64,000 nt of DNA, taken from NCBI RefSeq assembly GCF_003060865.1, contig NZ_CP028918.1, positions 2,158,001 through 2,222,000 on the forward strand, written 5' to 3'. The number at the start of each line of letters is the position of its first letter. The stretch's first letter is position 1. The DNA comes from Gemmobacter aquarius (GTDB lineage Bacteria; Pseudomonadota; Alphaproteobacteria; Rhodobacterales; Rhodobacteraceae). This document shows, piece by piece, positions 22,903 through 38,179 of the stretch. A program made the translations under genes and the position numbers. Under the pieces are notes generated by a model that saw nothing but the letters and a program-made list of their open reading frames with translations, did not search any database and was not told the DNA's origin.

Positions 22903-23375
22903 TCAACACCTCGCAACGCTCAACTTCTTTCTGGCAGAAAAGTCCGCGTGGATGATGACGGTATTCGGCGCATCCAGTTATCCGCTGGGGATATGGGTAG
23001 GAAGCCAAGAACGGCCACGCGGCGCGATCTTCAACAACGTCCCGATCATTCTGGCGAAATCAGCGGGCGTCACCAGCCTTTCACCCTGACTGAAGCCGGA
23101 AAACTCTGCCTTCGGACTTGAGATCGTTTCCAAGATGTCCTCGCCGTTGACAGCTTGGGCGACAATCCAACCGAGCCGCGAACCCGTACGAGGGGAACCG
23201 GCTGCCAGTCAGCGCGTCTTTCACGTGCGGATAAGCACTCCGAACGCCAGATAGGCCTCTATCGCATCGCGCCCGCGTCTAAGCGATGAGAGTTCGTCTC
23301 GCATGTAGGGCTCCGCCCGATGATGCTGCGTCAGCACGTTAAGCCCGCCGGACAAGATCATACAGGGAAAAGCTC
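22903..23375. other. Intergenic region (473 bp) between acyl-CoA dehydrogenase and tRNA-Cys
   Basis: No supported gene. A short minus-strand frame (23221-23361, 46 codons) follows the tRNA, but it has no recognisable domain or ribosome site. Between 22990 and 23220 all minus-strand frames are interrupted. A degraded mobile-element remnant is possible but not shown. The promoter for the dehydrogenase operon should lie near 22905-23000. Confidence 0.4.
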
Positions 23376-23449
23376 TGGAGGCGGGTACCGGAATCGAACC
23401 GGTCTTCACGGATTTGCAATCCGCTGCGTAACCTCTCCGCCAACCCGCC
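23376..23449 (-). tRNA. tRNA-Cys (GCA)
   Basis: Complete 74-nt cloverleaf with encoded CCA. The acceptor pairs GGCGGGT with ACCCGCC and is followed by U73 and CCA (23376-23379). The anticodon stem-loop reads GCGGA-TTGCAAA-TCCGT, giving GCA, and the T-loop GGTTCGATTCC is normal. It is the prophage attachment site: the 5' half (23413-23449) lies inside the 38-bp repeat and so came from the phage, while the 3' half is original host DNA. The integrase stop codon ends 15 bp upstream of its 5' end. The duplicate 5' half is at 42309-42345. Confidence 0.96.
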
Positions 23450-23450
23450 A
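23413..23450. repeat. attL: 38-bp prophage attachment repeat within tRNA-Cys
   Basis: Identical over 38 bp to 42309-42346. It runs from the anticodon loop to 1 nt past the 5' end of tRNA-Cys, so the crossover lies in the 5' half of the gene rather than the more usual 3' half. Confidence 0.93.
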
Positions 23451-23463
23451 GAGCCTTGCGTTC

Positions 23464-23490
23464 ACTATGTTTTCTCCCCGTCGCCGTCAA
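23464..23490 (-). promoter_or_regulatory. Phage-supplied replacement promoter for tRNA-Cys, overlapping the integrase stop
   Basis: Reading the minus strand, -35 TTGACG (23485-23490) and -10 CATAGT (23464-23469) are 15 nt apart, and the tRNA begins 14 nt after the -10. The integrase stop TAG lies inside the -10 hexamer. The displaced host promoter at the other prophage end (42360-42386: TTGCAC, 15 nt, TATAGT, 14 nt to the tRNA half) has exactly the same geometry. The sequence match is direct; promoter activity is inference. Confidence 0.65.
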
Positions 23491-24538
23491 GGCGTATCGT
23501 TTCGCGTATCACGTCCTTTTTTGTTCCGTATCTGTTCGCCCGCTTGGTCGCCGCCGTGTCCGATCGCATGACTTGCCGCGCAAGCCCCGCATACTTGACC
23601 ACCATCGCCCGCGAATTGTGCCCGCTGTAGGCTTGTATTTCCTCATCATCGCAGCCGGACCAAGCCAGCTCCATGATCCCCCGGTATCGCAAGGCGTGCA
23701 GGTCGAACGCCTCGAGGCCAAGCCGCTTACGCTCTTGCAGCATCACCCAAGCCAAGGGCCTATAGCTCATCGGGTCGCCGTCGCGCTTGCGCAAGATCGC
23801 GCCCTTCGGGTTGCCGCCCGCCGCCGCCTTGGCCGCGTCCAGCGCCGCCCTTAGCTCCGCCGTGCAGGGCAAGGAAAGCGCCTTGTCGGTCTTACCCTGC
23901 ACCAGCTCGAGCCGTTCGCCGTCATAGTCCGACCACTTGAACCGGCACCAATCGGCGGGCCGCTGGACGCTCCCCACCCCAAGCTCAAAGATCAGCCGGG
24001 GCAACGGCTCCGCCTTTTCCCGCCAAAGCGCCACCGCCTCATCCGTCCAAGGAAGGTGCGGGGCTTGCCGGTCCTTCGGCATCTTCAAGGGTCGCGCCCC
24101 TCGAGCTGCGTTTTCCGTCTGCCATCCCAAGTCAATCGAGACTTCCAGCAAGACCACAAGCACCGTGCGCAAGAGGTTCGCAAAGCGCACCCTATGCCGG
24201 TTAGCCTCGAGGGCGGCAAGCACATCGGCCCGCCGGGTCTTGGTCGCATCCTTAGTGCCGTTGCGCTCTAGGATGTATTCAAGCACCTGCTCATAATCAG
24301 CCCGCGTCCGGGTTTTAAGGGACAACCACCGATCGCCCGCCCGGTATGCCTTGACCAGCTCCGCCCAAGAGGTTCGGCCCGCCGTCCGCCCGTTGATTAT
24401 ATCCCAATACGCCCGGTCAAATTCTTCGGTTCCATGCGTGCCAGAAATGCGGAAATACTTTCCGGCCCGCCGCACATACCATCGCCGCCCGTCCGGGGTC
24501 CAAGGCTCGAGGGGCTTTGCCTTTGGTCGCCTCACCAT
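23465..24538 (-). CDS. int: Phage integrase, tyrosine recombinase
   Basis: Site-specific recombinase of 357 residues catalysing insertion at tRNA-Cys. An N-terminal arm/core-binding region (about 1-160, with LVKAYRAGDRWLSLKTRTRADY core AYRAGDRWLSLKTRTRADY) is followed by the catalytic domain. Candidate active-site residues are Arg in GSVQRPADW, Lys in QGKTDKAL, His-x-x-Arg in DLHALRYRG, His in YSGHNSR and the nucleophile Tyr in VVKYAGLA. It overlaps the excisionase-like gene by 7 bp. Its 3' end carries the putative tRNA-Cys promoter described separately. Confidence 0.93.
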   Translation of the reverse strand: MVRRPKAKPLEPWTPDGRRWYVRRAGKYFRISGTHGTEEFDRAYWDIINGRTAGRTSWAELVKAYRAGDRWLSLKTRTRADYEQVLEYILERNGTKDATKTRRADVLAALEANRHRVRFANLLRTVLVVLLEVSIDLGWQTENAARGARPLKMPKDRQAPHLPWTDEAVALWREKAEPLPRLIFELGVGSVQRPADWCRFKWSDYDGERLELVQGKTDKALSLPCTAELRAALDAAKAAAGGNPKGAILRKRDGDPMSYRPLAWVMLQERKRLGLEAFDLHALRYRGIMELAWSGCDDEEIQAYSGHNSRAMVVKYAGLARQVMRSDTAATKRANRYGTKKDVIRETIRLDGDGEKT

Positions 24539-24738
24539 TGCATCGCCCCGCCGCCTATCATTTCCCCCCGGATCACCGCCGCCAGCTCCGCCACGTCGAA
24601 CCGCTCGAGGCCCCCGATATTCCGGGGGCCGGGCAAGTGTCCTGCCGCGACCAGCCGCCGAAGATCGGCGGGGGCCATGTCCAAGAGCTGCGCCGCCCGC
24701 TTCTCCGTTGCAAAGATCGGCTCATCACGCTTTGCCAT
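24532..24738 (-). CDS. Excisionase-like small HTH protein
   Basis: A 68-residue protein with a MerR/AlpA-like winged HTH (ATEKRAAQLLDMAPADLRRLVAAG then LPGPRNIGGLERFDVAEL; cores ATEKRAAQLLDMAPADLRRL and LPGPRNIGGLERFDVAEL). Its position directly upstream of, and overlapping, the integrase gene suggests a recombination directionality factor. It could also be a small regulator. Confidence 0.65.
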   Translation of the reverse strand: MAKRDEPIFATEKRAAQLLDMAPADLRRLVAAGHLPGPRNIGGLERFDVAELAAVIRGEMIGGGAMQW

Positions 24739-24982
24739 GTCGCACCGTCCGCCATGTTGCGCCCCACCCCTCGAACGGCATGGGGTCGCCCGCCTTCTTC
24801 TTTGAAACCGGGTCTTGCGCTCGATCGCCGATCACATGCGGGCGCCCTAGGTGCGACACCACGGCATAGACCTTGCCGACCGTGTAGCGGGCCGGGTTGT
24901 CCGTTGTGACACACAAGACCTCATCGCCGGGTTGCGCCCCGGTTTCCCCGATCGAGGGGAACACACCGACACGCGCATTCAT
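24725..24982 (-). CDS. Hypothetical phage protein (85 aa)
   Basis: Not recognised. It reads MNARVGVFPSIGETGAQPGD followed by a beta-rich stretch (VLCVTTDNPARYTVGKVYAVV) that resembles small SH3-like barrel proteins of phage early regions; this is only an impression. It overlaps both neighbours (14 bp with the excisionase-like gene, 4 bp with the zinc-ribbon gene), which supports that it is translated. Confidence 0.55.
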   Translation of the reverse strand: MNARVGVFPSIGETGAQPGDEVLCVTTDNPARYTVGKVYAVVSHLGRPHVIGDRAQDPVSKKKAGDPMPFEGWGATWRTVRHGKA

Positions 24983-25236
24983 GCCCTAGCCCTCCGCGCC
25001 CCGTTCGGGTCACCCCAAACAATTCCCGCAGCCAAGGACGCCGCCCGCCACCTGTTATTCCACCGCGCAACCACCAGCTCCGCCCGGTTGCCTTCCTCCC
25101 AATGCCCGCAGCCGGGGCAATGCAGGTAGTAGGTCAAGGGCGGGGCCATCCACCCGCTGCAAGGCTCGATCATGCCGCAGGGGCACGCCTCGAACCGCAA
25201 GCCATCAAAGGCATGATCCGCTTGATTGCTCATCAT
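24979..25236 (-). CDS. Lar-like (restriction alleviation type) zinc-ribbon protein
   Basis: An 85-residue protein with Cys pairs FEACPCGMIEPC and LHCPGCGHWE, then the characteristic ending VVARWNNRW. This C-x-C...CxxCG...WN.R layout is that of Lar-type restriction-alleviation and related small phage zinc ribbons. The role is inferred: modulating host restriction or simply binding nucleic acid. It overlaps both neighbouring genes by 4 bp. Confidence 0.6.
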   Translation of the reverse strand: MMSNQADHAFDGLRFEACPCGMIEPCSGWMAPPLTYYLHCPGCGHWEEGNRAELVVARWNNRWRAASLAAGIVWGDPNGARRARA

Positions 25237-25433
25237 TCTTCCCCCTCAAGGAAAATTCCGAACGCTTGGTGCAGCCCGTGCGGATCGAGGCCCGACGATT
25301 GCCCAAGAGCCTTAGCTGCGCAGAAAAGCGCCATGATCCGTTCCGAAGTGCTGCCATCGGGCAGGGCTTGCACAACCGCACCGATTGCCGCGACACCCGC
25401 GCCGCGCACCCGGCTTTCCGTTGCCCGCTTCAT
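25233..25433 (-). CDS. Hypothetical phage protein (66 aa)
   Basis: Not recognised. It is predicted helical and acidic at the end (GIFLEGEE), with 4-bp overlaps on both sides inside the early operon, which is the main support for translation. Confidence 0.5.
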   Translation of the reverse strand: MKRATESRVRGAGVAAIGAVVQALPDGSTSERIMALFCAAKALGQSSGLDPHGLHQAFGIFLEGEE

Positions 25434-25684
25434 TCGCTCACACCCTCAGCCATCGCCCGCCGCGCCGCCGCCGCAGTCAGGGCCAAGCCCGCCGCCGAAC
25501 CGCCGCCGCCGTTCCACGTCGCAACCGCCAAAGCCGGGGATGCTTCCGCCCCGCCTTCCGCGCCGCACCCGCCAAGCTCAGGATCGCAGACAACGCGCCA
25601 GCCGCCGGGGCCGTCCCGCAGCTCCGCTACGTCATACTTGCAACTGCACACGTTCAGCCAAACCGGCTTAAATGACATTTTCAC
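25430..25684 (-). CDS. Second Lar-like zinc-ribbon protein
   Basis: An 84-residue protein with LNVCSCKYDV, a second Cys pair VVCDPELGGCGAEGG, and the W-N-G ending ALAVATWNGG. The layout matches the protein at 24979-25236 but the sequence is quite different. It is a candidate anti-restriction or nucleic-acid-binding protein; the C-terminal 20 residues are Ala-rich. Confidence 0.5.
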   Translation of the reverse strand: MKMSFKPVWLNVCSCKYDVAELRDGPGGWRVVCDPELGGCGAEGGAEASPALAVATWNGGGGSAAGLALTAAAARRAMAEGVSE

Positions 25685-25863
25685 GCCGCCACCCCTTCGG
25701 CTTTTCCGTCAAGGTCGGGTTGATCCTGCGGCACGGTAAAGCCGCGCTCGATCAGCAAGAGAACCTCGCTGTTGATGCTCCGCCGGTTGCGCTCCGCCGA
25801 AGCCTTGATTTTGTCGCGCATATGCTCAGGCCAGCGCACGTTGAATTGCGGGGTGCGGTTCAT
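25681..25863 (-). CDS. Arc-like ribbon-helix-helix DNA-binding protein
   Basis: A 60-residue RHH protein: the strand QFNVRWPEHMRDKIKASAER is followed by NRRSINSEVLLLIERG, the typical Arc/MetJ helix pair. It is the first gene of the leftward early operon leading to integrase. It is divergent from another RHH gene across a 120-bp control region that contains a dyad. Confidence 0.78.
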   Translation of the reverse strand: MNRTPQFNVRWPEHMRDKIKASAERNRRSINSEVLLLIERGFTVPQDQPDLDGKAEGVAA

Positions 25864-25881
25864 GTTAGGTCTTTCCTTTCA

Positions 25882-25922
25882 TAGTTAGTCACTACCACCC
25901 GCCAAGATGTAGTAACTAACTA
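25882..25922. promoter_or_regulatory. Putative operator dyad between the divergent RHH genes
   Basis: Near-perfect inverted repeat: TAGTTAGTCACTAC (25882-25895) and GTAGTAACTAACTA (25909-25922), one mismatch, 13-bp spacer. It sits in the AT-rich gap 25864-25983 between two genes for Arc-like proteins, so it is a natural binding site for one or both and a likely lysogeny control point. Binding is inference. Confidence 0.6.
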
Positions 25923-25983
25923 TTATTGCGGCAAGCTCTTTTTCATACCAGCTTACTACCATACCGGCCCAAGGGGTTCCCAA

Positions 25984-26328
25984 ATGCCCGATCCGATCCG
26001 CCACACCTACCCAAGCGGCACGCAAGACCAATTCAACCTCAGGCTACCCGGCGGCTTGCGGGAACGGATCAAGAAGGCCGCAGAGGACGAAGGCCGCAGC
26101 ATGAATGCGGAAATCGTCGCAACCCTTCTCGAGAAATACCCCGAGCCAACAGAGGATTACCGCCCGATCCTCGAGCTATTCCGCCACATCAACGCCGCCG
26201 AAAATGACGCTGAATTTTTCGCCCGCGTGCAATCCATCAACGAATTTTTCCACCGATCGAACGCCGATATTGTCGCCAAGACTTCGGACGGGGGAACCCT
26301 GACAATCGAAGTCAAACACCGCCGCTAG
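25984..26328 (+). CDS. Arc-like ribbon-helix-helix regulator with C-terminal extension
   Basis: The only plus-strand gene in the prophage. The product is 114 residues; the RHH unit reads FNLRLPGGLRERIKKAAEDE then GRSMNAEIVATLLEKYP. A C-terminal extension of about 60 residues (ending GGTLTIEVKHRR) may mediate oligomerisation. Its isolation, divergent from the early operon, is how phage repressor genes are usually placed. It ends 4 bp into the last lysis-side gene (convergent). Confidence 0.75.
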   Translation: MPDPIRHTYPSGTQDQFNLRLPGGLRERIKKAAEDEGRSMNAEIVATLLEKYPEPTEDYRPILELFRHINAAENDAEFFARVQSINEFFHRSNADIVAKTSDGGTLTIEVKHRR

Positions 26329-26651
26329 GCAAAGATCGCATCGAAGATATCGCCGGAAAGCTCACCCGCGATAACTGGACGGTCAGACCGCGCCGCCTGC
26401 AACCAAACCGCATCCAAGGCCCGGATCAGGGCGAAGTGACGCGACCCGAACGGCAAGCCGGTAATCTGCCCATAGGCCACCAGCTCCGCCGCCGTGATCG
26501 GCAAGGGCACGCCCTGCGCAAACCGCCGCCCGTCAGACAGCGCCGAAAACGCTTGCCAGAACACCACGCCCGCCTCAGGCACCCTTACCCCCCGGCGGGT
26601 TGCTAGGCTTTGCTCAAGCGCCGCCACAAGAAGCCGGGTAAGGTTATTCAC
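26325..26651 (-). CDS. Hypothetical phage protein, possibly tail-chaperone-like (108 aa)
   Basis: The start is taken as GTG 26651 because it overlaps the Rz1 stop (GTGAATAA); upstream codons are Arg-rich and fall inside Rz1. The part PLPITAAELVAYGQITGLPF plus ALIRALDAVWLQAARSDR resembles a small family seen near tail-tube genes in alphaproteobacterial prophages, but here it closes the lysis cassette. Function unassigned. Confidence 0.5.
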   Translation of the reverse strand: MNNLTRLLVAALEQSLATRRGVRVPEAGVVFWQAFSALSDGRRFAQGVPLPITAAELVAYGQITGLPFGSRHFALIRALDAVWLQAARSDRPVIAGELSGDIFDAIFA

Positions 26652-26868
26652 CGCCGCCCCCGATCGTCGCCACCGCCGCAAGCTTTGCGTTCGCACACAA
26701 GCGCCCCGATCGCTCCGCAGCGCCCGCCCGCAAAAGCTCCCCTTCGGTCGCGGGCGTTCGGCCCTGCCATCCGGGGCACGGGGTCAGCATATCCGGCGGA
26801 ATGATCGGCAACGGGTCAGGGCCACACCCTGCTAGAACCGCGCCGCAGATAATCAGACAAAGGCGCAT
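26644..26868 (-). CDS. Rz1-like outer-membrane spanin lipoprotein
   Basis: Starting at ATG 26868, MRLCLIICGAVLAGCGPDP is a lipoprotein signal with lipobox LAGC, followed by Pro-rich PDPLPIIPPDMLTPCPGW. The gene begins inside the 3' end of the Rz-like gene in another frame, the classic Rz/Rz1 arrangement. With Rz it would span the periplasm and fuse membranes in the last step of lysis. Confidence 0.75.
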   Translation of the reverse strand: MRLCLIICGAVLAGCGPDPLPIIPPDMLTPCPGWQGRTPATEGELLRAGAAERSGRLCANAKLAAVATIGGGGE

Positions 26869-27091
26869 CGGCCCCGACCCCCTCTTGCAATTCCCGATCG
26901 AGCCGCGCCGCCTCGAGCTGCGCCGCCTCGAGCTTGGCAACGGTTTCCCGTCGCGCCTTCTCAGTCACCACCAGCCGCGCCGCCTCGAGCTGCGCCGCGT
27001 CCCGTTCCTCGATCGCCCCGGATAGCCGCCACGATTGCACCGCGACCAGAACCACCAGGGCGAATATTACCGCCGCCGCCGCCCGGATCAT
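26816..27091 (-). CDS. Rz-like inner-membrane spanin
   Basis: The 91-residue product starts at ATG 27091, which overlaps the endolysin stop (ATGA). One N-terminal membrane segment (AAAVIFALVVLVAVQSW) precedes a long charged coiled coil rich in Glu/Ala/Arg with a near-repeat AAQLEAARL (twice). This matches an i-spanin. The coiled-coil DNA repeat makes the region locally repetitive (gccgcctcgagct, several times near 26905-26995). Confidence 0.75.
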   Translation of the reverse strand: MIRAAAAVIFALVVLVAVQSWRLSGAIEERDAAQLEAARLVVTEKARRETVAKLEAAQLEAARLDRELQEGVGADAPLSDYLRRGSSRVWP

Positions 27092-27564
27092 TGCAGCCCC
27101 GCAAGGCAAAGATCGCGCTCCGCCGTCCGCCGGTTGACCAGCCCGCGAACCACGCGCCCGCCCGCCTTGGTCCACATCATCAGGGCGTCACATGAACCGC
27201 GCAGATTTCCGGCCATCGCCCGCCGCGCCATGCTCGAGGCGCAAAAGGCATCGGCCCCGATATTGTAAGCCGTGACCGTAAACGCCGCCCGCGACGGCAA
27301 GGGCAGATCACCGGGCAAGCAAGGCCGAATTGCCGCCTCGAACTCCGCAACCGCCGCCGCCGTCATGCGGTCACACTCCGCCGGGGTCGCCGTGTCGCCC
27401 ATGCGAACCCCGCGTGTTTCGCCGTCGCAGATCGTGGCCTTGCCGACTAGATCGGCATAGGCCGCAAGCCGCCGCCCCTCCCATGCCTTGACCATCGGCA
27501 CGGCCAGCGCGACCACCAGCGCCGCCGCACCCGTTGCCCCGGCCAGCTTTCCCGGCCCCCTCAT
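27088..27564 (-). CDS. Endolysin, SAR-type lysozyme (GH24-like)
   Basis: Peptidoglycan hydrolase of 158 residues from ATG 27564. An N-terminal hydrophobic stretch (GATGAAALVVALAVPMVKA) is only weakly hydrophobic with Ala/Gly, like a signal-anchor-release segment. The lysozyme motif E-x8-D/C-x5-T is seen as WEGRRLAAYADLVGKATICD with GETRG after it; the catalytic Glu follows W. The C-terminus has AFTVTAYNIGADAFCASS and VNRRTAERDLCL, typical of R21-like endolysins. Confidence 0.85.
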   Translation of the reverse strand: MRGPGKLAGATGAAALVVALAVPMVKAWEGRRLAAYADLVGKATICDGETRGVRMGDTATPAECDRMTAAAVAEFEAAIRPCLPGDLPLPSRAAFTVTAYNIGADAFCASSMARRAMAGNLRGSCDALMMWTKAGGRVVRGLVNRRTAERDLCLAGLQ

Positions 27565-27755
27565 TGCATCCACCGCTTGCGGGCGTAGCCTGCAATCTGG
27601 ACGGCCAGCCATACCGCCGACAGGATCGGCACCAACTCCGCCGCGACCTCTGAAACCCGCTCGAGGGACGGCCACCAAACCGGCATAGAAATTCCGCCGA
27701 CCGCCACCCCGTCAGTTACCCGCCTTATCAATGCCTCGCCCTTTCTTTTTGTCAT
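27561..27755 (-). CDS. Putative holin
   Basis: A 64-residue protein with one clear membrane segment (AAELVPILSAVWLAVQIAGY) and a basic C-terminus (ARKRWMQ). It sits directly upstream of the endolysin gene with a 4-bp overlap. Size, single segment and position fit a holin or pinholin partner of a SAR endolysin. No family identified. Confidence 0.6.
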   Translation of the reverse strand: MTKRKGEALIRRVTDGVAVGGISMPVWWPSLERVSEVAAELVPILSAVWLAVQIAGYARKRWMQ

Positions 27756-28183
27756 TACGCACGGATGGACATTGCCAGCCGGAAAAGCTCATCAACGGCC
27801 AAATCGTCCAAGTCCATCGCCCCGGCCAAATGGGCAATCGTCGGGCTATCGCGGTAGAATTCGCCCGCCTCGTCCCATGCCAGCTTGTGCATGAAGTTTT
27901 CGGATTGGCTCAAAAGCCGCTCGACCGTAGGCAAGAGGCCCGCTTGATAAAGCGCCGCCTTGGCTTGGAACCGGCTTGCCCGCATCGCCGCCCGCTCGAT
28001 CGGCAACGGATCACCGGCAACAAATTCGGCTGGCTGCATTTCAAGGGCGGAACGGTAGATATCTTGCCCCGCTTTCTCCACGTCAGTTTCAGACGCGGTA
28101 AACGGTATCCAGCCAAATTCGGGGTGCAGAATTTCGCAATCAATGCTGCCGAACCTGTTGAATTTTGGGTTTCTGATTTCCAT
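27755..28183 (-). CDS. Hypothetical phage protein, possibly tail-fibre-assembly-like (142 aa)
   Basis: The start is set at ATG 28183, which overlaps the upstream stop (TGATG). The N-terminal MEIRNPKFNRFGSIDCEILH and EFGWIPFTASETD resemble the opening of tail-fibre-assembly-type proteins that describe a substrate position. The rest is helical. It lies between the last virion gene and the holin. Confidence 0.5.
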   Translation of the reverse strand: MEIRNPKFNRFGSIDCEILHPEFGWIPFTASETDVEKAGQDIYRSALEMQPAEFVAGDPLPIERAAMRASRFQAKAALYQAGLLPTVERLLSQSENFMHKLAWDEAGEFYRDSPTIAHLAGAMDLDDLAVDELFRLAMSIRA

Positions 28184-28593
28184 CACGCAATCCTCTGGAA
28201 AAGTGTTGCATCGGTCGTGCCCGCGCCACGCGAACCCATCGCCCGCCACGTCCCTGTCAGCGTCCCGCCGCTAAAGTTACTCGTAGACGAATATTGCAAA
28301 GACGAACCGGCAAGGGTTGCGCCCGCAGTAATCGCAGACGTGCCGGAAACCGTGCGCAAAAGGGCATACGTTCCAACCCCGCCCGCGCCCGGATCGATCA
28401 CACGCGCAGCCACCCACGCCCGCCCCGCCGCCGTTGAAGCGCCAGTATCAAGCGCCGCGTCTTGCAACCTTGGGGCACCCGCCGCGCCCTCAAATCCGGC
28501 CCGCCAGTTTTCAAACCACCGCTGGAAATGCAGGGCTGTTGCCGGGGCATCGGGCGCATATTCTGCCGGGGTATAGGTAAGATAATCGGTCAT
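28183..28593 (-). CDS. Hypothetical virion-associated protein (136 aa)
   Basis: Ala/Thr/Gly/Ser-rich, beta-prone (TVSGTSAITAGATLAGSSLQ), as in distal tail or decoration proteins. It begins at the stop of the large tail protein gene (1-bp overlap) and is followed by the assembly-like gene. Function unassigned. Confidence 0.5.
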   Translation of the reverse strand: MTDYLTYTPAEYAPDAPATALHFQRWFENWRAGFEGAAGAPRLQDAALDTGASTAAGRAWVAARVIDPGAGGVGTYALLRTVSGTSAITAGATLAGSSLQYSSTSNFSGGTLTGTWRAMGSRGAGTTDATLFQRIA

Positions 28594-30364
28594 TAGATCG
28601 CCCTATATGGTTCGTCGCCGTTGGACATTTTCAGGGTTGTATTGTCGCAGGCATACATGCCGCGCAGCTTTTGCGCCGGGGTTGACAGGGTATAAGCGGG
28701 CCGGGTGTTTTCGGTCGCGTAGCCGTATTTACTGTTGAAGTCGAAATCCTGCGCTGTGACCTCGATTTCATGCCCCGGCACAAGATCGGCAATTCCTATC
28801 GCCTGCATCCGGCGATTACCCGAGGCCCCGGTTGCATCTTGGAACGCCCCGGTTTGAACCTCGAGAACGTCAACCAAGCTTATTGCACCGTCCTTTTGAT
28901 CGAGATGGACGCGCGCGCGGATCGGCTGCTTTGCAAAGCGATTTAGAACCCGCTTAGAAATGACGGTGATAACCGCATCCGCGCCTTGGTTCAGCCACCG
29001 GCAATAGACTTTTCGGATCTTGGTATCATTGAAGGCGTTGACGCCCTTTGCCTCTAGGTCCGGGGTCAAGGTGACGCGGGCGTAATTGTCGGTTGAGTTT
29101 GCCGCCTTGGTCGGATCGAGCTGGACAGAAAAAAACATGACTTCTGTAATTCGGTCTTTTTCCCGATCTTCAAAAGTAATCGCCTTGATATTGGCGGCAT
29201 CGGACAAGAGCTTGACGCTTTCGCCGTCAACTGGACGGGTCGCCCGCAAGCCGATTTCCTGCGCCACATCATCCCACCAAACCGCAATGCCCAAGATGGA
29301 CAATTCGGCAATCAGCTTGGCAACGCCGGTCGGGCTGCAAACATCGGTTGTCAGCAAAACTTGCGGCATCCACCGCGTTATTTCCGCGACCCATTTTGCC
29401 TTGGGGATATAGGCCGTTGGCACCCCGGCATAATCGCGCAAGAGGATTTCAAGCGCGTCGTCAATCCGCATCGCCACCGGGGAAAACGTCTGTTGAACGG
29501 CATCGCCCGCGCTATGCGCCGCCGCCTTGGTCCCGCTCAAGCCGCGCCCGGTCAGGGTCAGCACGTCGCCCGATCGGGTGTAGCTCACCAGCTCCGAACC
29601 GATCACCGCCCGACCGCTTGCCGGATAAGAGGCCGCACCCTCGCCCGCCGGGGTCAAGGTTAGGGTTGTGGCAACATCGGTTATTCCAGCCGCAAGCGCC
29701 CCCCTCGACGGTTTAGGGCAAACCGCCTTTTCATCATCCGCAAGGGCCAGAATATCCTTTGCCTCAAAAGTCCAAGTCCGGCCATCTTCGCTCCCTGTCA
29801 TTTCGGTAAGAATGAAATTTCGCGTCCGGGTGTTGACCAGCGCACCGCCCTCAAGCTCACCCTGCACCACGCGCAAAGCCCGCCCCGCGTAGTATGGCCA
29901 CCGCGCCCGCAGCTTGCCAAAGAACGTGCCCCGCGTTGCCGGGTCGTAACCCACGCCGCCGAACTGTGCCGCGCCGCTCAAGCGTTCGGCTTGGTATCTG
30001 TCGGTTAGCCGATCGTGATAGGGGAAATCCCGCAGCTCGACCGTGACCGTTCCGCGCCGCCCGAGGGGCCTAGGCTATCATCGGCCCCCGCAATGTTGAC
30101 GGTTTGGCTAAAGGTCGTGACGCGCTCGAGGGCCGGAAAGATCGTCGCCCCCTTGGGCAAACCGGGGCGCGGATCGGCAAAGCGCAGGGTCAAGGGCACC
30201 CGAGAAAATGCCGCCTTAGCGCCGCAGGTTGCAAAGGTGTTGTGACATTTGTTTGGGCGTCCAGCGTTTAAGACAGCCGTGCATGGCGCAATGCCGAATG
30301 TCAGGGCGCACCCGTCAACATCGATTTCAACGACTGTGACAGGTTCACGCGGCATAGGCGGCAA
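28593..30364 (-). CDS. Phage tail tip/hub protein (frameshifted)
   Basis: Large distal tail protein. An N-terminal frame from 30364 carries the paired-Cys motif NKCHNTFATCGAKAAF. It breaks at a G4 run (30065-30068), where one added base gives SLGPLGRRGTVTVELRDFPY and continues into the 462-residue C-terminal frame (RVVQGELEGGALVNTRTRNF, SELVSYTRSGDVLTLTGRGL). The repaired protein is about 590 residues. The second frame has no plausible start of its own (it would begin at TTG in mid-sequence), which supports one gene. Confidence 0.72.
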
Positions 30365-31139
30365 GCTCCATCCCTACGTCAACCCACTTGCCGCCCGCTT
30401 GCAGGGCGGGGCGCATTTCGCCCGCATCCACAGACCGCCACGCATAGGCGCAATCTTGCGGCAAGAAGGAAGGCGAACCGGCAAAGAAGAATGCGCCGCC
30501 CGCGTCATAATGCGCGTTGAAGGGCACTAGGTCAGCATCGGCCCAAGTCCGGGGCAGGACAGTAAATTTCACCGACATATCCGCGCCGCGCCGCGTTACC
30601 CGGTTGCCGAGGAAATGCCCGCCCAAGGTCGAACCGCCCAAGAGCTGCACCCGCCGCGCTCGATCGAATGGAACGTATCCGGGCTGTATCCCGCCGGGGA
30701 AAACCAGCCGCTTTCCGATCGAGGCAATCCCGATCGAGGGGATACTTGCCCCGGCAACAGTCAGCCGCAAACGCCGCGCCGACACCGCCGGGAAAACCAG
30801 CATTTGCGCATCGTCGTCGGTCGGGGTCAGGGTTGCCACATCGATATAGGCCGCGACCAGATCGACCGAATAGGCAAGCGTTACCGTCGCCGCCTTGGTC
30901 CCGAGGTTATGCGCGGCAATGGCGAAACAATCGACCAGCTCCGCCGCAGGTAGCGTAGCGGTCAAGGTCGCAGGCATCGCGGTTGGCGTCCAAAAGTCGT
31001 AGGTTTGGGGGCCAAGCGCATTTGCGGCCGCACCGTCCGCCGCCGCTGTAGACGCAACCAGCGTGCCCCGGCCTAGGGCATTGCTCCAAAGCACCGCGGG
31101 GTTTGCCGTATCGACCGCCCCGGACAAGCAAGTAATCAT
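30345..31139 (-). CDS. Phage distal tail protein (264 aa)
   Basis: The start is ATG 31139, overlapping the tape-measure stop (ATGA). The sequence alternates beta-rich segments (FDRARRVQLLGGSTLGGHFL, RRGADMSVKFTVLPRTWADA) and ends MELAAYAA. Following the tape measure and preceding the tail-tip protein, it takes the place of a distal tail (Dit-like) protein. The functional name is inference from position. Confidence 0.65.
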   Translation of the reverse strand: MITCLSGAVDTANPAVLWSNALGRGTLVASTAAADGAAANALGPQTYDFWTPTAMPATLTATLPAAELVDCFAIAAHNLGTKAATVTLAYSVDLVAAYIDVATLTPTDDDAQMLVFPAVSARRLRLTVAGASIPSIGIASIGKRLVFPGGIQPGYVPFDRARRVQLLGGSTLGGHFLGNRVTRRGADMSVKFTVLPRTWADADLVPFNAHYDAGGAFFFAGSPSFLPQDCAYAWRSVDAGEMRPALQAGGKWVDVGMELAAYAA

Positions 31140-33298
31140 CGCCCCGTCTCCCAAACAATGCCCCGGTTGCCCGCCTCTTTTTGAATAGCCGTCACCAGCT
31201 CGAGCAAAGCGCCGCCCTCGTAAAGCTTGGCCGGGTCGATCCCCTCGAGCCGCGCCCGCAAGGGTGCCGCCTCGCTTTGGCTCGAGCTGGACCCGCCCGA
31301 GCTGGACCCACGCCCGCCGCCGGACCCGCCGCCGCCGCCACCGCCGCCGCCCTTGATCGCCGCGACCATGCGAAAGCCCGCCGCGCCGATCGCCGCCGCC
31401 GCCGCGAATTTGCCAAAGAAGGGAACCGAGGGGTCAGCAAGCACTTGGGCTTGCGCCCGATAGGTATTGATAAGGGCTTCCGCCGCGCCAAAGATTTGCG
31501 TGGCTTTCACCATCTTATTCCCGCCCGCAGCCGTTAGGGTCGCCATAGACCCGAAAAAGCTTTCGGCATTGGCAAGCGCCCCCTCATCCCCATTCGATCG
31601 GATCGCCCGCAAACGCTCTTGGTGTTCAACCTCGAGGCGCTCCAAAGCCTCATGCCGCCCGCCGATCGCCTCTAGCTGTTTGTCGGTCGCTTGCGTCAAA
31701 AGGGCTTGGCTTTCCTCATACCAAGCGGAAAGCAATTCGCGTTCGGTCTCCAGATCGGCCACAAGAGCCGCCACGCGGCTAGACGTGTTATCGCCGCCCC
31801 CACCACCGCCGGAACGCTTGGGGGTATCTGGCAAGCCCGCGTCAATGTCAGACGGGGCACGCCGGGGCCGGGGGGTATTAGGCCCCGCTTCCTGCACCAC
31901 GATTGCCGGGGGTGCAGAACCGCGCCCCCCGCTCTCGAAAGCGGGGCCGGTTCCCAAACCCTCGATCGTTCGGATTTCCGCCGCCGCCTCTTGCGCCGCC
32001 GCCGGTATTTGCTTGATCCAATCGAGCAACCCGGACACCGCCCCGGACACGCCCGCAAGGCGGGCTTGGTCAAGCTCGCTCATTTTGGAAATCGCGTCGC
32101 CGGTTTCGGTTGCAATGCGCTCGAGCTTGGCCGCGTATTCCTCGCCCGTGATCTTGCCATCCGCGAAGGCTTGCGCCGCGTCCGACATTTCCGCCGCAAG
32201 GTCAGTCAGCACCACCGCCGCCGCCTCATTGCCAAGGCCGCGCATCATTGTTGCGCCCTCAGCCAAGGCCGGAACCAAGAGCCGCGCCTCAGCTCCTAGA
32301 GCTTGGTATTCGGCAATCAGGCTTTCGAGCTGGACCTTTGTTCCTTCCTGCACATCCTCCAAAGCCGCAAGCTGCGCCGTCAATTCTTCGCCGATCACCC
32401 GCGCCGCTTGGTCCGGCACAAATTCCGCCGCCGCCCGCGCCTCTCGATCGACAAGCCCAAAGAAGGTTGCCGCCTCGACCACCCCGACCTTAAAGACGTT
32501 GCCGAGCCGGGTTGCCAGCATGTCAAATTTATCGTCAAGCTCCGCCGCCCGACGAAGCAAATCTTCCTCGATCACATAGCCGCCCTCGATCGCGGCTTGC
32601 TTCATTGCGTCCAAACCTTCCGCCCCATCGGCAAAGGCCAGGGTCATGTTTTTGCCCGCCTTCCCGAAAGCATCGGTTGTCAGGGCCATCCGGGCCGCTT
32701 GGTCCGGGGCATCCTTCACCAGCCCCGCGAAATCCCGCAGCAAATCCACCGTTGGCCGCAGGTTCCCGGCTTGATCGGTCAGCGCGATATTGTTGCGCTT
32801 CAAGACCTCGTAAAGCGCACCGCTGCCCTTTTGCGCATCCCCAAGCCGATCGACAAAGTTTTTCAGGCCGCTTTCGGCTTCTTCGGTCGCCACGCCGGCC
32901 AAGCCCATACCCTGCACAAGCCCTTGGAAATCATCGGTAGACATTGCCACCGCGTCCGCCACGTCGACCAAATCGGCCATTTGCTTGACCGCCGTTGCCG
33001 CCGCCGAACCGATTTGACTTAGGGTCGCCGCAAGCCCGCCCGCGATAAGGCCACCGACGAACGCTTGCCCGAATGCACCGATACGCCCGGATATCGAGGC
33101 CATCGATTGATTGACGGACGCCGCCGCCCGCGCCGCGTCCCGCTCCATTTCACGGGTTGCGCGGCTCGAGCTGTTGCGCAGGCCGGTATAAGTCCGGGTG
33201 CCGCGCCTTTCGGCTTGCTGCATCCGCTTTTCAAATTCTGCAATCCGAGCCTCGAGCATGACAACCAGTCGCTCATCGGCCCCCGCGCCTTCCGACAT
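31136..33298 (-). CDS. Phage tail tape measure protein
   Basis: A 720-residue protein that sets tail length. The N-terminal coiled coil (AEFEKRMQQAERRG) is followed by tape-measure features: SGRIGAFGQAFVGGLIAGGL, helical Ala-rich core with TDDFQGLVQGMGLAGV and GKAGKNMTLAF, and a low-complexity Gly/Ser stretch near residue 660 (KGGGGGGGGGSGGGRGSSSG). At about 720 residues it predicts a tail of roughly 100 nm if the usual 0.15 nm per residue holds. Confidence 0.85.
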   Translation of the reverse strand: MSEGAGADERLVVMLEARIAEFEKRMQQAERRGTRTYTGLRNSSSRATREMERDAARAAASVNQSMASISGRIGAFGQAFVGGLIAGGLAATLSQIGSAAATAVKQMADLVDVADAVAMSTDDFQGLVQGMGLAGVATEEAESGLKNFVDRLGDAQKGSGALYEVLKRNNIALTDQAGNLRPTVDLLRDFAGLVKDAPDQAARMALTTDAFGKAGKNMTLAFADGAEGLDAMKQAAIEGGYVIEEDLLRRAAELDDKFDMLATRLGNVFKVGVVEAATFFGLVDREARAAAEFVPDQAARVIGEELTAQLAALEDVQEGTKVQLESLIAEYQALGAEARLLVPALAEGATMMRGLGNEAAAVVLTDLAAEMSDAAQAFADGKITGEEYAAKLERIATETGDAISKMSELDQARLAGVSGAVSGLLDWIKQIPAAAQEAAAEIRTIEGLGTGPAFESGGRGSAPPAIVVQEAGPNTPRPRRAPSDIDAGLPDTPKRSGGGGGGDNTSSRVAALVADLETERELLSAWYEESQALLTQATDKQLEAIGGRHEALERLEVEHQERLRAIRSNGDEGALANAESFFGSMATLTAAGGNKMVKATQIFGAAEALINTYRAQAQVLADPSVPFFGKFAAAAAIGAAGFRMVAAIKGGGGGGGGGSGGGRGSSSGGSSSSQSEAAPLRARLEGIDPAKLYEGGALLELVTAIQKEAGNRGIVWETGR

Positions 33299-33309
33299 TC
33301 TGTCACCCC

Positions 33310-34917
33310 TCAGACCGTAAAGAAGTCATCCTCAAACCACGTCGCCGAGGTGGTGAACCGCTCACCGCCCGCCGCCGCCCGCGCCACCGCCATTGCCGTT
33401 GCAACCGCGCCGTCGATTTTGTTTCCCGACCGGCCCTTGTGCATCATGCGGTTGCCCGCCCGGTCGGTTTCGACTTGCACGTTTTCAAAATTCCAGCGCA
33501 ACACCGGGTGCCCGCCATGCCGCAGCCCGCCGGAAATCACCGCCCGTTCCAGCTCTTTGACCGCCGGGGCCATGCTTGCCCAACCTTGCCGAAACTCGAC
33601 CGCCGGTATTCCGTCCGCGTTAAGGTTCGCCATCATCACCCGGCCAAAGGTCGGGTCGAATGCGACCTCTTGAACCGCGAACCGGGCGCAAAGCTCCCTG
33701 ATTTGATCTTCAACGGCTTGCAAATCGACCGTGTTTCCGGGGGTCGCGGTAATAAAACCATCCTCCGCCCAGCTCACATAATCGACCCCGTGCAATTCGC
33801 CGCGCTTGCGCAGGGCATCGGCGGGACAGAAAAAGAACGGATGCACGATAAAGCCGCCGTGACCGTCGCGCCACGCCGCAACAATCACCGTCAAATCCTC
33901 ATTTTTGGAAAGATCGACCCCAAGCCAACACGGCTCTTGGCTCATTTCCAAATCGTCAAGATCGACTTCCGCCGCGCCCTCATCGTAAACGTGCATTTCG
34001 ACAAACGGCGACGTGGAACTGTCAAGCCATCGGTTAAGGTTGAATTGCAGGAAGCCGTCACGCTCGAACGGGGAAAACTCCGCCTTGCGGGCCTTATCCC
34101 GGAAACCCGTTATATCCGGGTAGCCGTGCGCCATGCCGGGGTTAACCTCCGACCAAAGCCGCTCATCCTGCCAATCGTCCTCAGGCTCGAGCATGAAAAT
34201 TACAGGCAGGGTCGCCGGGTCGTGTATCTGGCCTTTCTGGACCTTGATCGCGTAGTCAATCGTTTGCCATGCAAGGTTTTCTTGGCCGCGCCCCGAGGTT
34301 GTCGCCACAATCATCAAGGTTCCTTTGACCTTGACTAGCGCACTGTCTAGCGCCTCCCACATGCGCAGGCCCTTTGCCCCGGCCCATGCGTGCAGCTCAT
34401 CGGCAATAACGACATTCGGGGTCTTGCCGTGGGTTGCGTTGCCCTCAGCCGCCACGGCGATGTAACGGGTTTTCAACTCGTTATAGGCAATCCGAGAAAC
34501 GTATTCCCGAACCTGCAACTTTTTGGCAAGCCGCCGATCGAACTGGACGATCATCGCCGTTTCTTGAAAAAGCTCCATTGCCTGTTCATGCGCAGACGCC
34601 GCCGAAATAATCAGGCCACCGGGCAGACGTTCCGGCCCGATCAGGTGCAAGAGGTTGATTGCCGCGCAAAGGCTCGTTTTGCGGTTGCCACGGGGAACGT
34701 TGATAACCACGCGCCGAACAATCCGGGTTCCGTCCTCATGGCGCGGGCCATAGATCGCCCGAATAATATTCTCTTGCCACGGGTCCAACTGGAACGGGTT
34801 GCCGGGGGCCGGGTTTTTCGGGTGCCGCAGCGCCCGCAAGAACTTAACCGCCCGCTCCCCATAGCCGAACGGGTCCGCAATGCTCGAGGCATCATTGATC
34901 CAATCAGGAACCAGCAT
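33310..34917 (-). CDS. terL: Terminase large subunit
   Basis: DNA-packaging motor ATPase and nuclease of 535 residues from ATG 34917, overlapping the small-subunit stop (TGATG). Visible are a Walker-A-like VVINVPRGNRKTSLCAA, Walker B VVIADELHAW, the coupling motif VATTSGRGQENLAW, and nuclease Asp motifs WLGVDLSKNEDLTV and EVAFDPTFGRVMMANL, with a late Asp in GNKIDGAVATAMAVA. It lies between TerS and the tape measure gene, which is not the usual place at the start of the late operon. Confidence 0.92.
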   Translation of the reverse strand: MLVPDWINDASSIADPFGYGERAVKFLRALRHPKNPAPGNPFQLDPWQENIIRAIYGPRHEDGTRIVRRVVINVPRGNRKTSLCAAINLLHLIGPERLPGGLIISAASAHEQAMELFQETAMIVQFDRRLAKKLQVREYVSRIAYNELKTRYIAVAAEGNATHGKTPNVVIADELHAWAGAKGLRMWEALDSALVKVKGTLMIVATTSGRGQENLAWQTIDYAIKVQKGQIHDPATLPVIFMLEPEDDWQDERLWSEVNPGMAHGYPDITGFRDKARKAEFSPFERDGFLQFNLNRWLDSSTSPFVEMHVYDEGAAEVDLDDLEMSQEPCWLGVDLSKNEDLTVIVAAWRDGHGGFIVHPFFFCPADALRKRGELHGVDYVSWAEDGFITATPGNTVDLQAVEDQIRELCARFAVQEVAFDPTFGRVMMANLNADGIPAVEFRQGWASMAPAVKELERAVISGGLRHGGHPVLRWNFENVQVETDRAGNRMMHKGRSGNKIDGAVATAMAVARAAAGGERFTTSATWFEDDFFTV

Positions 34918-35344
34918 CAGCCGCCCCACCCAAAAAGCCCATCGTCCTCATCATCCTCATCGACCGTTGGCCGCGACCGCGAAACCGGGGTGCAACCAAG
35001 CTCCGCCGCCAAGAGCCGCGCCCGTGTGATCGCGTCCGACTGGACGGAAACCGCCGGGTTTTTGCGCAGGCCGATCACCCGGCTTTCGCCCTCTTTGTCG
35101 ATCGCATAGACCATCATGACCGCCCCGAGCTTTTGAATTTGGCGCTCCATTTCCCGCGCCTGCCCGACCGCCATGCAGTAATTTTCCAAGCTGCCAAGAT
35201 CGGCGGTTGTCAGGATTTTCCGCCGCGCCAAGATCGGCACCACCCGCAACCATTCCGCCGCCGCGTCCGCCGTGAACCAATCCGGCGGGGCATGTTTTCC
35301 AAAGGCTCTCGCTCAATGGCGATATGCGGCTTTGTCCCGCGCAT
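34917..35344 (-). CDS. terS: Terminase small subunit, P27-like (frameshifted)
   Basis: DNA-recognition subunit of the packaging motor. The true N-terminus MRGTKPHIAIEREPLENMP starts at ATG 35344. The frame breaks at a G4 run (35287-35290), where one added base gives ENMPPPDWFTADAAAEWLRV and enters the C-terminal frame (RVVPILARRKILTTADLGSL). The repaired product is 142 residues, ending in an acidic tail DEDDEDDGLFGWGG. Both ends overlap neighbours by 1-3 bp. Confidence 0.8.
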
Positions 35345-35673
35345 CAGGTGCCCCCGTCCAGTTGATCGGACAAGACCAGCTCGAGGCCGCGCCGCCGCCC
35401 GATCACCTCGACCCGATCGACAGAGTAAGTTTTGCCCCGGAACGTCACCCGGTCCGCCGCCGTGATATCGACCGCCGCCCGGACCCGGACGGTTAAGCCC
35501 GCCTCTTGTGTCAGCCCGGTTTGCCCCGCCCCCGCTTCCTGCCCTTCCTGCACCAGCTCCGCCCGCAGCGTTGCCAGCGTCGGCCACGTCCCTTGCTGCG
35601 TGCCGTTCGCATCAACCCCGGACGGTTGCCAGCGCAGCACGGCCAACGGGTGAACCATCTTGCCCGCCCTCAT
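35344..35673 (-). CDS. Phage head closure / head-tail adaptor protein
   Basis: A 109-residue protein; the start MRAGKMVHPLAVLRW at ATG 35673 overlaps the upstream stop (ATGA). The fold pattern (VRVRAAVDITAADRVTFRGK then YSVDRVEVIGRRRGLELVLS) is that of the SPP1 gp16/HK97 gp7-type adaptor: a small beta barrel that joins connector to tail. It sits in the head-tail joining block. Confidence 0.72.
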   Translation of the reverse strand: MRAGKMVHPLAVLRWQPSGVDANGTQQGTWPTLATLRAELVQEGQEAGAGQTGLTQEAGLTVRVRAAVDITAADRVTFRGKTYSVDRVEVIGRRRGLELVLSDQLDGGT

Positions 35674-36080
35674 TGCCCCGGCTCCGTAACCATCAGCTCC
35701 ACCACAAGCACCCCGTGCGCCGCTTTGCCGTCCGGGCTGCGCATGAAACGCACCGCGCTTACCCTGCACCCGCCGCAGATCAGGCCCGCCGCAAGGGGCA
35801 ACCGCGCAGACAGGGCACGCCGCACGGCACCTGCCAGCGTGCGCACGCCCGCTAGACTTTCCTCCCGCCGCCATAGGTGCAGGGTATGGGCAACCGTGAA
35901 TTGCGACCGAACCACCGCGCCCGCGTCGATCAATTCGCCCTCGCCGATAATGATTGACGGCATGGGAACCGGCACCGGCCCGCCGTTGATAACCGAGGCC
36001 GCAGGCACGAAGGAAAGAACCTCGCTCGAGGCCACCAGCGCCGCCCGGACCGCCGCCAAGGTTGCAATTTCCGCCGTCAT
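35670..36080 (-). CDS. Tail completion/terminator protein, DUF3168-like
   Basis: A 136-residue protein from ATG 36080. The pattern fits DUF3168 tail terminators: N-terminal helix (EIATLAAVRAALVASSE), then SIIIGEGELIDAGAVVRSQF and HTLHLWRREESLAGVRTLAG, ending VELMVTEPGQ. It overlaps both neighbours by 4 bp. It would cap the growing tail tube. Confidence 0.75.
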   Translation of the reverse strand: MTAEIATLAAVRAALVASSEVLSFVPAASVINGGPVPVPMPSIIIGEGELIDAGAVVRSQFTVAHTLHLWRREESLAGVRTLAGAVRRALSARLPLAAGLICGGCRVSAVRFMRSPDGKAAHGVLVVELMVTEPGQ

Positions 36081-36487
36081 TTCTTGGACCCCCGAACGGC
36101 TTTGCCGATCCCGCGCTTGATCTTGGCAAGGGCCTTGGTGCGCCCGAACCGAAACCCCGGCCAAAAGAACGGTTGCGCCGGGGCGTGCGTGGTGCCGTAT
36201 TCCACCAGATGCGGATAGCGAACGTTGGTATTTCCGACCGTGATTGCCGCTTGCGTCGGCCCCACAAGAGCCTCGCCGCCGGGTTGACTATAGGCCGGGG
36301 TCAGCTCACCCGGACCAGTAACGGCGATGCTTGTGCGCATGTCGCCCTCATCCACCGGGGCAAGTCCGCGCATTATGTCCGCGATATCGTCAGCCGCCGC
36401 GACCAATGCAGGGCCAGCCGCTTGCACCACGGCTTGCGGCAAGGCCCGCAACCGGCGCTGAAACGAGGAAAGCCCGCCGTCACTCAT
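36077..36487 (-). CDS. HK97 gp10-like head-tail joining protein
   Basis: A 136-residue protein: FQRRLRALPQAVVQAAGPAL, then APVDEGDMRTSIAV and the family signature VRYPHLVEYGTTHAPAQPFF. It ends with a basic tail (AVRGSKK). It is a member of the HK97 gp10 putative tail-component family acting at the neck. Confidence 0.85.
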   Translation of the reverse strand: MSDGGLSSFQRRLRALPQAVVQAAGPALVAAADDIADIMRGLAPVDEGDMRTSIAVTGPGELTPAYSQPGGEALVGPTQAAITVGNTNVRYPHLVEYGTTHAPAQPFFWPGFRFGRTKALAKIKRGIGKAVRGSKK

Positions 36488-36490
36488 GGC

Positions 36491-36790
36491 TTAGAAACTC
36501 CAATCCCGGAAATCTGAAATGATATCGGCCACGCCGAACGGGATTTCCCGCGCTTCCGCGCCGGTCACTTCCCGGTTTTCATACCAATGGGCGGCAAGCA
36601 TATTGACGGCCAGCAACAGAGGATCAGGCCACCCGGCGGGAAACTGGACCGCGACGGCGAAGCCAAGCCGCCGCTCGATTGTTGCCGTCGCCGCCCCAAG
36701 CATCTGCTCGAGCAAGGCCACATCATAACCCGCCATGTCGTCGGTAAACGAAAGGTGGTCTTGCAAGCCCGCTAAGGTTGGTGCCGTCAT
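36491..36790 (-). CDS. Phage head-tail connector protein (gp6-like)
   Basis: A 99-residue helical connector. The hallmarks are a helix with ERRLGF, then DPLLLAVNMLAAHWYENREV and IPFGVADIISDFRDW. It would form the ring beneath the portal. It starts at ATG 36790 after a 107-bp non-coding stretch that carries a C8 run and a hairpin (36843-36880), the only sizeable gap within the late operon apart from those around capsid and portal. Confidence 0.82.
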   Translation of the reverse strand: MTAPTLAGLQDHLSFTDDMAGYDVALLEQMLGAATATIERRLGFAVAVQFPAGWPDPLLLAVNMLAAHWYENREVTGAEAREIPFGVADIISDFRDWSF

Positions 36791-36897
36791 GCCCGAAAAT
36801 CCCTATTTACCGCAAATAATGCGCGCTCCACCCCGCGCCGGTCCCCGAGGGGGTGCCAAAGTTTGGAACCACCCCCCCCGGTTAGATCGCCGCCGGA

Positions 36898-37377
36898 TCA
36901 GGTCGGGCTTGCGTGCGTCACAACGAGGTTGCTGTTCGGTTGCAGGGTCGCAACCAGCTTGCCAATCCCATCGGTCGTATCGTTGCAGGCCATAACCTTT
37001 GCGATAAACATTCGAGTGCTGTTCTTCGGGGCCGCGCCCGCAGTCGGCTTGTCGGCAAGCTCGATCTTGAAGGCAAAGTCACTCTCGGACAGGAAGGCCG
37101 CACGCAAGGCAAGCTGCCCCGGGTCGGTCGGATCGAGGGCAAATGTCAGCTCGATCGCGCCCGCCTTGCGGTTACCCTTCGCAACCTTGGTTCGGCCATC
37201 GGTCACGTTGTCGAATGCCAGCTCTGCGAACGTGTCGCCGATCGCGCCCATAACTTCCGGCTCTTTGATTTCGACCCACGTTTGCGACGTGAAGTCACCC
37301 GACACGAAGTCCGCAGACTTCATAGCCAAAGCACCGCCAATGCTCCATTTGCTGCCCTTGATCGAATAGAACGCCAT
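36898..37377 (-). CDS. Major tail tube protein
   Basis: A 159-residue protein with GALAMKSADFVSGDFTSQTW, AGAIELTFALDPTDPGQLAL and a strongly beta-structured C-terminus (LVATLQPNSNLVVTHASPT). Size and sequence fit siphovirus tail-tube proteins. No tail-assembly chaperone pair follows it, so the usual tube-chaperone-tape order is broken; instead joining and terminase genes come next. Confidence 0.75.
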   Translation of the reverse strand: MAFYSIKGSKWSIGGALAMKSADFVSGDFTSQTWVEIKEPEVMGAIGDTFAELAFDNVTDGRTKVAKGNRKAGAIELTFALDPTDPGQLALRAAFLSESDFAFKIELADKPTAGAAPKNSTRMFIAKVMACNDTTDGIGKLVATLQPNSNLVVTHASPT

Positions 37378-37382
37378 GCGCC

Positions 37383-38116: not shown

Positions 38117-38179
38117 CGTGGGTTGCTCCTTTCAAAGCAAAGGGGGAAAGGCAGGGCGCGAACGCCCCTGCCACGGGCC

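Follow-up and report, generated by a model that had tools for sequence, protein, structure and literature searches.

The prophage analysed here very probably carries in its attachment site (attP) not only the 5′ half of tRNA-Cys but also a dedicated tRNA promoter, from which the only tRNA-Cys gene of the lysogen would be transcribed. This tailed prophage of 18.9 kb splits the sole tRNA-Cys gene of its host within the window, i.e. the whole stretch of 64,000 nt of Gemmobacter aquarius DNA at G000:C1:2158001-2222000 that was analysed. According to the proposed mechanism, attP would consist, in this order, of the integrase gene, arm-site-like repeats, a σ70-type tRNA promoter and the tRNA-Cys 5′ half up to the anticodon loop. 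Recombination at attP would join the block of promoter and 5′ half to the host 3′ half. The sole tRNA-Cys gene would thereby become whole again and be transcribed from the phage promoter, with the native promoter left at the far end in front of a truncated tRNA half. RNA polymerase would thus start at the phage-borne promoter, the tRNA supplied in this way is presumably what lets the lysogen live, and selection for this supply probably keeps the promoter sequence. The prophage, the tRNA, the attachment cores and the integrase gene were assigned as follows:

23451–42308, no strand: prophage body (PHROGs and Pfam matches of 20 selected ORFs)
23376–23449, minus strand: intact, regenerated tRNA-Cys(gca), with the 5′ half from the phage attP and the 3′ half from the host (ARAGORN)
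23413–23450, minus strand: attachment core at the integrase end, from the tRNA 5′ end through the anticodon (repeat search and sequence)
42309–42346, minus strand: attachment core at the far end, i.e. the displaced 5′ half of the host tRNA-Cys (repeat and DNA search)
23465–24538, minus strand: tyrosine recombinase (integrase) of 357 aa, PF00589 (open ORF and Pfam)

The 20 ORFs encode portal, head protease/capsid, terminase, head-tail adaptor and completion proteins as well as a major tail protein, tape measure, tail fibre, endolysin and a replication-initiation-like protein, according to the PHROGs and Pfam matches. An HNH endonuclease gene (window 37383–37922) adjoins the major tail protein gene. 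The element is bounded by a direct repeat (23407–23450 and 42303–42346) with 42 of 44 positions identical. Its exact part of 38 nt (23413–23450 and 42309–42346) begins one base ahead of the tRNA, ends with the anticodon and is followed by the host 3′ half at the integrase end and by phage DNA at the far end. The repeat at both ends confirms the proposal of an earlier note, made from the sequence alone, that the core covers the tRNA-Cys 5′ half and that integration displaces the native promoter. The intact tRNA gene, in which the host 3′ half follows the core, likewise bears out its proposal that the phage restores the missing half. The end of the identity and the dyad CGGATT-GCA-AATCCG suggest that the exact crossover point would lie in the anticodon loop.

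The tRNA-Cys at 23376–23449 is the only one among the 45 tRNAs found in the assembly. The earlier note had suggested looking for other copies; the DNA search of the genome yielded no full-length one besides it, only the displaced 5′ piece and, at the place of the tRNA-Phe gene, a weak match to positions 23–62 (83%). The window contains just two tRNA genes, this one at the junction and a tRNA-His at 59356 outside the prophage. The arrangement of an element with a displaced 5′ tDNA fragment is complete: an intact tDNA, a 5′ fragment on the same strand upstream of it and the integrase gene between them. It is not that of tRNA-dependent lysogeny, in which a complete phage tRNA of the same isotype is present and the host gene is not rebuilt.

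The integrase gene is read towards tRNA-Cys and ends 15 nt before it with the stop codon TAG (23467–23465). Its product contains the PF00589 catalytic domain (51.2 bits against a cut-off of 27.1), and residues R193, H281, R284, H307 and Y316, which we take to be the catalytic ones, are invariant in an alignment of eight sequences. A tblastn search of 50,697 phage records with the integrase gave 18 records, all below 60% identity (26–31% among the matches listed), which means that a cultured phage of this type did not turn up in that set.

Promoters were sought with a two-box model trained on 41 non-Cys tRNA upstream regions of the same genome (45 were fetched). The consensus of the model is CTTG[AC]..-17-TAAA.., mostly 7–15 nt before the tRNA. 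It placed a promoter at each end of the prophage:

23485–23490, minus strand: −35 element TTGACG, 17 nt from the −10 element (tRNA-promoter model)
23462–23467, minus strand: putative −10 element TAGTGA, whose TAG is the integrase stop codon (tRNA-promoter model)
23450–23461, minus strand: leader of 12 nt from the −10 element to the tRNA (sequence and model)
42358–42386, minus strand: displaced native host promoter TTGCAC-17-TAGTCG-12 (model and genus comparison)

The integrase-end sequence matches a σ70-type tRNA promoter (CTTG[AC]..-17-TA..) and scored 12.0, whereas the displaced host promoter scored 11.8. Within the prophage, 24 of 37,552 positions on both strands scored as high as the former and 30 of 37,552 as high as the latter, in a model that is imperfect on its own training set (27 of the 41 upstream regions reach the cut of 9.1). 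A promoter-like string arising by chance in an arbitrary stretch could be argued from the modest hexamers, TAGTGA being a modest −10 element, and from a generic E. coli σ70 scan of 23300–24700, which reported no promoter. The rarity of equally good positions and the presence of the pattern in all the 31 co-directional relatives counted below make this explanation hardly credible. The case for a promoter is built on the tRNA promoters of the genome itself and on the comparison with relatives.

The earlier note had read the promoter as TTGACG and CATAGT separated by 15 nt, with 14 nt to the tRNA. Both hexamers are present (TTGACG at 23490–23485, CATAGT at 23469–23464), but TAGTGA with 17-nt spacing and 12 nt to the tRNA is the better parse, and CATAGT was rejected as the −10 element because both the model and all 31 co-directional relatives set TA 17 nt after the −35 hexamer. 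The integrase stop does lie within the −10 element, as had been proposed, with its TAG opening TAGTGA. The host copy (TTGCAC at 42386–42381, TAGTCG at 42363–42358) has the same geometry under the model; both ends are parsed as TTG-17-TA-12, and the claim of equal geometry therefore stands with 17 and 12 nt. As an argument for selection, also put forward in the note, the equal spacing is modest evidence and alone no proof: among the other tRNA genes of the genome the 17-nt spacer is usual (30/41), while the 12-nt gap occurs in 5/41.

A single full tRNA-Cys match was found in 18 of the 19 genus genomes, including that of the window, and none in G016. Fourteen of the 17 native upstream regions share both the 17-nt spacer and the 12-nt gap (TTG-17-TA-12), 13 of these 14 scoring above 9.1; in the three exceptions (L264, L267 and L268) a promoter-like sequence can be seen by eye several nt further upstream of the tRNA. 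The far-end flank of the prophage lies directly upstream of the whole tRNA in element-free genomes: the right flank (from 42303 on) aligned by blastn beyond the core at this place in 11 of the 17 genus loci. The displaced promoter is therefore the native one. The left flank matched all 17 loci over the tRNA and a few nt only and is hence uninformative.

Relatives of the integrase were collected from 61 and 394 genomes, from GTDB contigs (80 of 130 loci kept) and from viral contigs (42 loci). In the search of the 394 genomes only matches with E ≤ 1e-40 were taken, and loci were given for the best ones. The 135 rows with at least 45% identity, which include some duplicates between sources (genomes are repeated, e.g. 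L075, L107 and L184), were sorted by what follows the integrase gene; L016 was dropped as a wrong HSP with 27% identity. The integrase is co-directional with a tRNA 5′ end in 32 of the 135 rows (28 tRNA-Cys, three tRNA-Trp and one tRNA-Cys half) and faces a tRNA 3′ end or 3′ half (convergent) in 80 (78 tRNA-Cys, one tRNA-Asn and one tRNA-Phe). The remaining 23 were left uncounted, with no tRNA or half recognised near the integrase, in several cases because the record ends at the integrase stop. Row L089, a co-directional one having an inner stop in the integrase and no displaced half in its genome (G276), is among the 26 spacers of the strict test. In the conservation analysis, the looser scan and the counts of repeats and stops it was left out and the viral contig L212 was included, again giving 26 distinct spacers; the 31 co-directional rows share ancestry, and some of them are duplicates.

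Elements that integrate into tRNA genes mostly rebuild the 3′ half and leave the gene under the host promoter. A 5′-half element cuts the tRNA off from its native promoter and has to bring one of its own, which is not required of a 3′-half element; the 3′-side relatives do leave the host promoter in place. In the strict test, all 26 distinct co-directional spacers exceeded the 99% null of 9.1, whereas none of the 45 distinct intact convergent spacers did (highest 7.6); the median scores were 13.75 and 1.6, respectively. The looser scan gave 11.4–15.0 for the 31 co-directional rows and 3.9–11.0 for the 80 convergent ones, 79 of which remained below 10. The one convergent row past this cut, L128, has its match 55 nt off and without TTG or TA. 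Apart from this weak match, the counted rows fit the expectation that a promoter would be needed in 5′-half elements only. Related integrases lacking a promoter at this place, which the earlier note had named as evidence against its proposal, were looked for; all 31 rows (26 distinct spacers) have a promoter-like sequence at the same register. The spacer is 17 nt in all of them, and the gap to the tRNA is 12 nt for tRNA-Cys and 11 nt for the three tRNA-Trp. As a separate observation, the convergent rows L077, L088, L094, L172 and L182 have a TTGAAA-like stretch immediately past the 3′ end of the tRNA, on the strand of the integrase. In L006, L076 and L078, which come from different genomes, convergent integrases stand beside a 3′ tRNA-Cys half only, followed by a common sequence beginning with GGGAAAAATTGTAAACGGACTTG.

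Across the 75 columns of the 23 distinct co-directional tRNA-Cys spacers, invariance is confined to TTG (−41 to −39) and TA (−18 and −17) of the promoter; columns −34 to −28 are nearly random (0.03–0.49 bits), and AAAAC at −24 to −20 is also well conserved. This pattern bears on the possibility that tRNA-Cys is transcribed by read-through from the integrase promoter or another phage promoter, as proposed for archaeal pTN3-like elements, the TTG...TA block being incidental. The integrase gene and tRNA-Cys are indeed co-directional and 15 nt apart. Against read-through, the block agrees in 26 of 26 distinct spacers with the tRNA-promoter model, which was trained separately, stands in the register of 14 of the 17 native genus copies and holds the only invariant columns. 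Moreover, integrase genes are usually quiet in lysogens. We consider read-through highly improbable, and a dedicated tRNA promoter is the preferred reading.

The promoter is adjoined by repeats:

23493–23511, minus strand: repeats TGATACG (23511–23505) and CGATACG (23499–23493), just upstream of the −35 element (sequence)

At least two copies of [TC]GATA within the 150 nt before the tRNA were found in 30 of the 31 co-directional rows and in 76 of the 80 convergent ones, and these repeats are probably the arm sites of the integrase. The conserved block might be a site for the integrase, an excisionase or a host factor and a promoter in appearance only. It lies between the arm-like repeats and the core, the conservation of AAAAC would suit such a site, and its register is constant with respect to the crossover as well; tRNA-Cys and tRNA-Trp have gaps that are one nt apart, which would allow a lock to the crossover. 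Integrases of the same family in the opposite orientation, however, keep the repeats (76/80) and the core without the block (0/45). Furthermore, the distance between the second repeat and the −35 element is 12 nt greater in L104 (tRNA-Trp) than in L194, whereas the promoter stays with the tRNA. These comparisons leave a recombination site only a very small probability and favour the tRNA promoter.

The promoter overlaps the end of the integrase gene in the window, as the earlier note had stated, but this does not hold for most relatives: the integrase stops 59–99 nt before the tRNA, upstream of the promoter, in 21 of the 31 co-directional rows, and 135 nt before it in L173. The stop coincides with TA(A/G) of the −10 element in six of the 31 (L001, L102, L103, L158, L160 and L203) and with TGA of the −35 element in L156, and the frame followed in L159 and L176 runs past the tRNA start.

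The metagenomic viral contig L212 contains the integrase gene, the promoter and the tRNA 5′ half, followed by DNA matching the phage arm at the displaced end in genome G119 (82% over 123 nt, core included, and 66 of 86 aligned positions beyond it). By this order of elements the contig is an attP, and the presence of the promoter in it indicates that the promoter travels with the phage. In both G107 and G119, the displaced host half was found at a distance of about 10.2 kb, and the elements with this integrase there (G107:C8 and G119:C10) are about 10.2 kb long, in comparison with 18.9 kb in the window; they are possibly satellites or defective. The displaced host sequences scored 8.1 (G107) and 4.4 (G119) within the same limits, the latter rising to 12.8 if a 17-nt gap is allowed. 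For row L082, searches of 60 kb and of the genome (G384) gave no displaced half. We also considered that the phage promoter is a copy of that of the present host and rejected it: the two match at 13/41 positions in the window, 17/41 in G107 and 13/39 in G119, with shuffle p values of 0.18, 0.017 and 0.18, respectively, so only G107 stands above the shuffles. In G344, a more distant integrase (38% identity) at tRNA-Leu has the same 5′-half arrangement with a displaced 39-nt 5′ half 39 kb away. There, 28 of 40 upstream nt agree with the displaced host copy by raw count, and the phage promoter may be a copy of the host one; the model scores are 10.9 and 12.9, with no TA in the −10 element.

In a quick integrase tree of 99 rows, orientation changes at least five times by parsimony, and at least three changes are forced by well-supported branches. 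This tree includes L089 and L092 and excludes proteins shorter than 240 aa, rows below 36% identity, identical proteins and rows without a tRNA; the integrase trees are quick searches in which long branches were flagged. Among the 94 rows of a closer set, orientation changes three times and promoter presence (cut 10) four times, the extra row above the cut being L128. Promoter presence goes with orientation in three independent pairs in most of 200 pairings, a number of contrasts that puts significance in a sign test out of reach, and in an unrooted tree gain and loss of the promoter look alike.

The 5′-half arrangement is known but rare. The Islander database lists 159 islands with a 5′ tDNA fragment against 3760 with a 3′ fragment (PMC4383910), and the former resemble the present prophage in having a tyrosine integrase, an intact tDNA and a displaced 5′ fragment. 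The word "promoter" does not occur in the main text of that paper as far as available, whereas here a phage-borne promoter was identified and traced through one integrase family. In the archaeal pTN3-like integrases, according to the passages available, attB also lies in the tRNA 5′ half and the tRNA is parted from its original promoter (PMC8371274, PMC5495485). In those elements, however, the integrase gene is disrupted by integration and transcription of the tRNA is ascribed to the integrase promoter, while the window has its att site inside the tRNA 5′ half too but an integrase ORF unbroken over 357 aa, with a tRNA-type promoter after or inside its end. According to the available part of the review, recombinant tRNA genes of bacteria keep to their original promoter "with very few exceptions", and expression of a tRNA from the promoter of the element is "seldomly encountered in bacteria" (PMC8371274).

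Related solutions are known for other genes and phages. In dusA-specific islands the 5′ end of the target gene is replaced, and putative −10 and −35 elements were reported before and after insertion; the target there is protein-coding, and the available text contains no register or comparative test (PMC4482086). In actinophages with tRNA-dependent lysogeny, the lysogen depends on the tRNA function supplied by the phage, and the phage tRNA promoter was demonstrated with a reporter, but, as described in the passages available, a complete tRNA gene is present on the phage and the host gene is not reassembled on integration (PMC10865867). In SpyCI a promoter within the integrase ORF drives the interrupted host gene (mutL rescue); as described in the accessible text, this promoter is cryptic, lies in a decayed integrase and precedes a protein operon (PMC3430984), unlike the open integrase and the conserved lineage here. 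The open-licence literature, including the available portions of PMC11476347, PMC9897764, PMC2647930 and PMC8224337, yielded neither a description of this integrase family nor a dedicated tRNA promoter in a bacterial attP, an absence that is weakly supported. As far as these searches show, what would be new is a dedicated, conserved promoter for the tRNA and the way in which, within one family, it is coupled to orientation.

Besides the tRNA half, a 5′-half element has to provide a promoter that its hosts can use, which is a candidate reason for the dominance of 3′-half elements. As both solutions occur in one bacterial family, among relatives of about 50% identity, this reason becomes testable. 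The family is, in addition, a source of phage-borne promoters for a single-copy tRNA that are conserved within a lineage, and it includes cases of a −10 box doubling as a stop codon. A broader reading, which we put forward tentatively and regard as rather doubtful when taken as a whole, is that, by virtue of a near-palindromic anticodon stem-loop (CGGATT-GCA-AATCCG), one integrase family can flip the tRNA half that it restores, each flip being tied to gain or loss of a portable attP promoter. The 5′-half elements would then put the only tRNA-Cys of the host (or a tRNA-Trp or tRNA-Leu) under a phage promoter whose −35 element adjoins the arm sites of the integrase, and binding of the integrase at induction could thereby shut down an essential tRNA.

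Some further observations concern the tRNA-Cys genes themselves. In the window (23376–23461) and in most genus relatives (L258–L274), the leader GCTC is able to pair with the trailer GAGC across the tRNA, and this applies to the phage-borne leader in the window too. Such pairing was dismissed as a feature imitated by these phages, being absent from most other co-directional elements. A second D-arm type of tRNA-Cys (GGTGGGCAGGCAGGCTATGC, one mismatch allowed) was found in 14 of the 394 family genomes (L082, L108, L117, L129, L187 and L233–L247). It stands beside some co-directional integrases, but a phage origin was rejected: only two of the 14 genomes (G139 and G384) had the integrase at E ≤ 1e-40, and the type therefore looks native. 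Finally, a genus relative contains at G012:C70:2859-2902 (L276) an extra fragment that is exactly tRNA-Cys 31–74, as a 3′-half element would leave.
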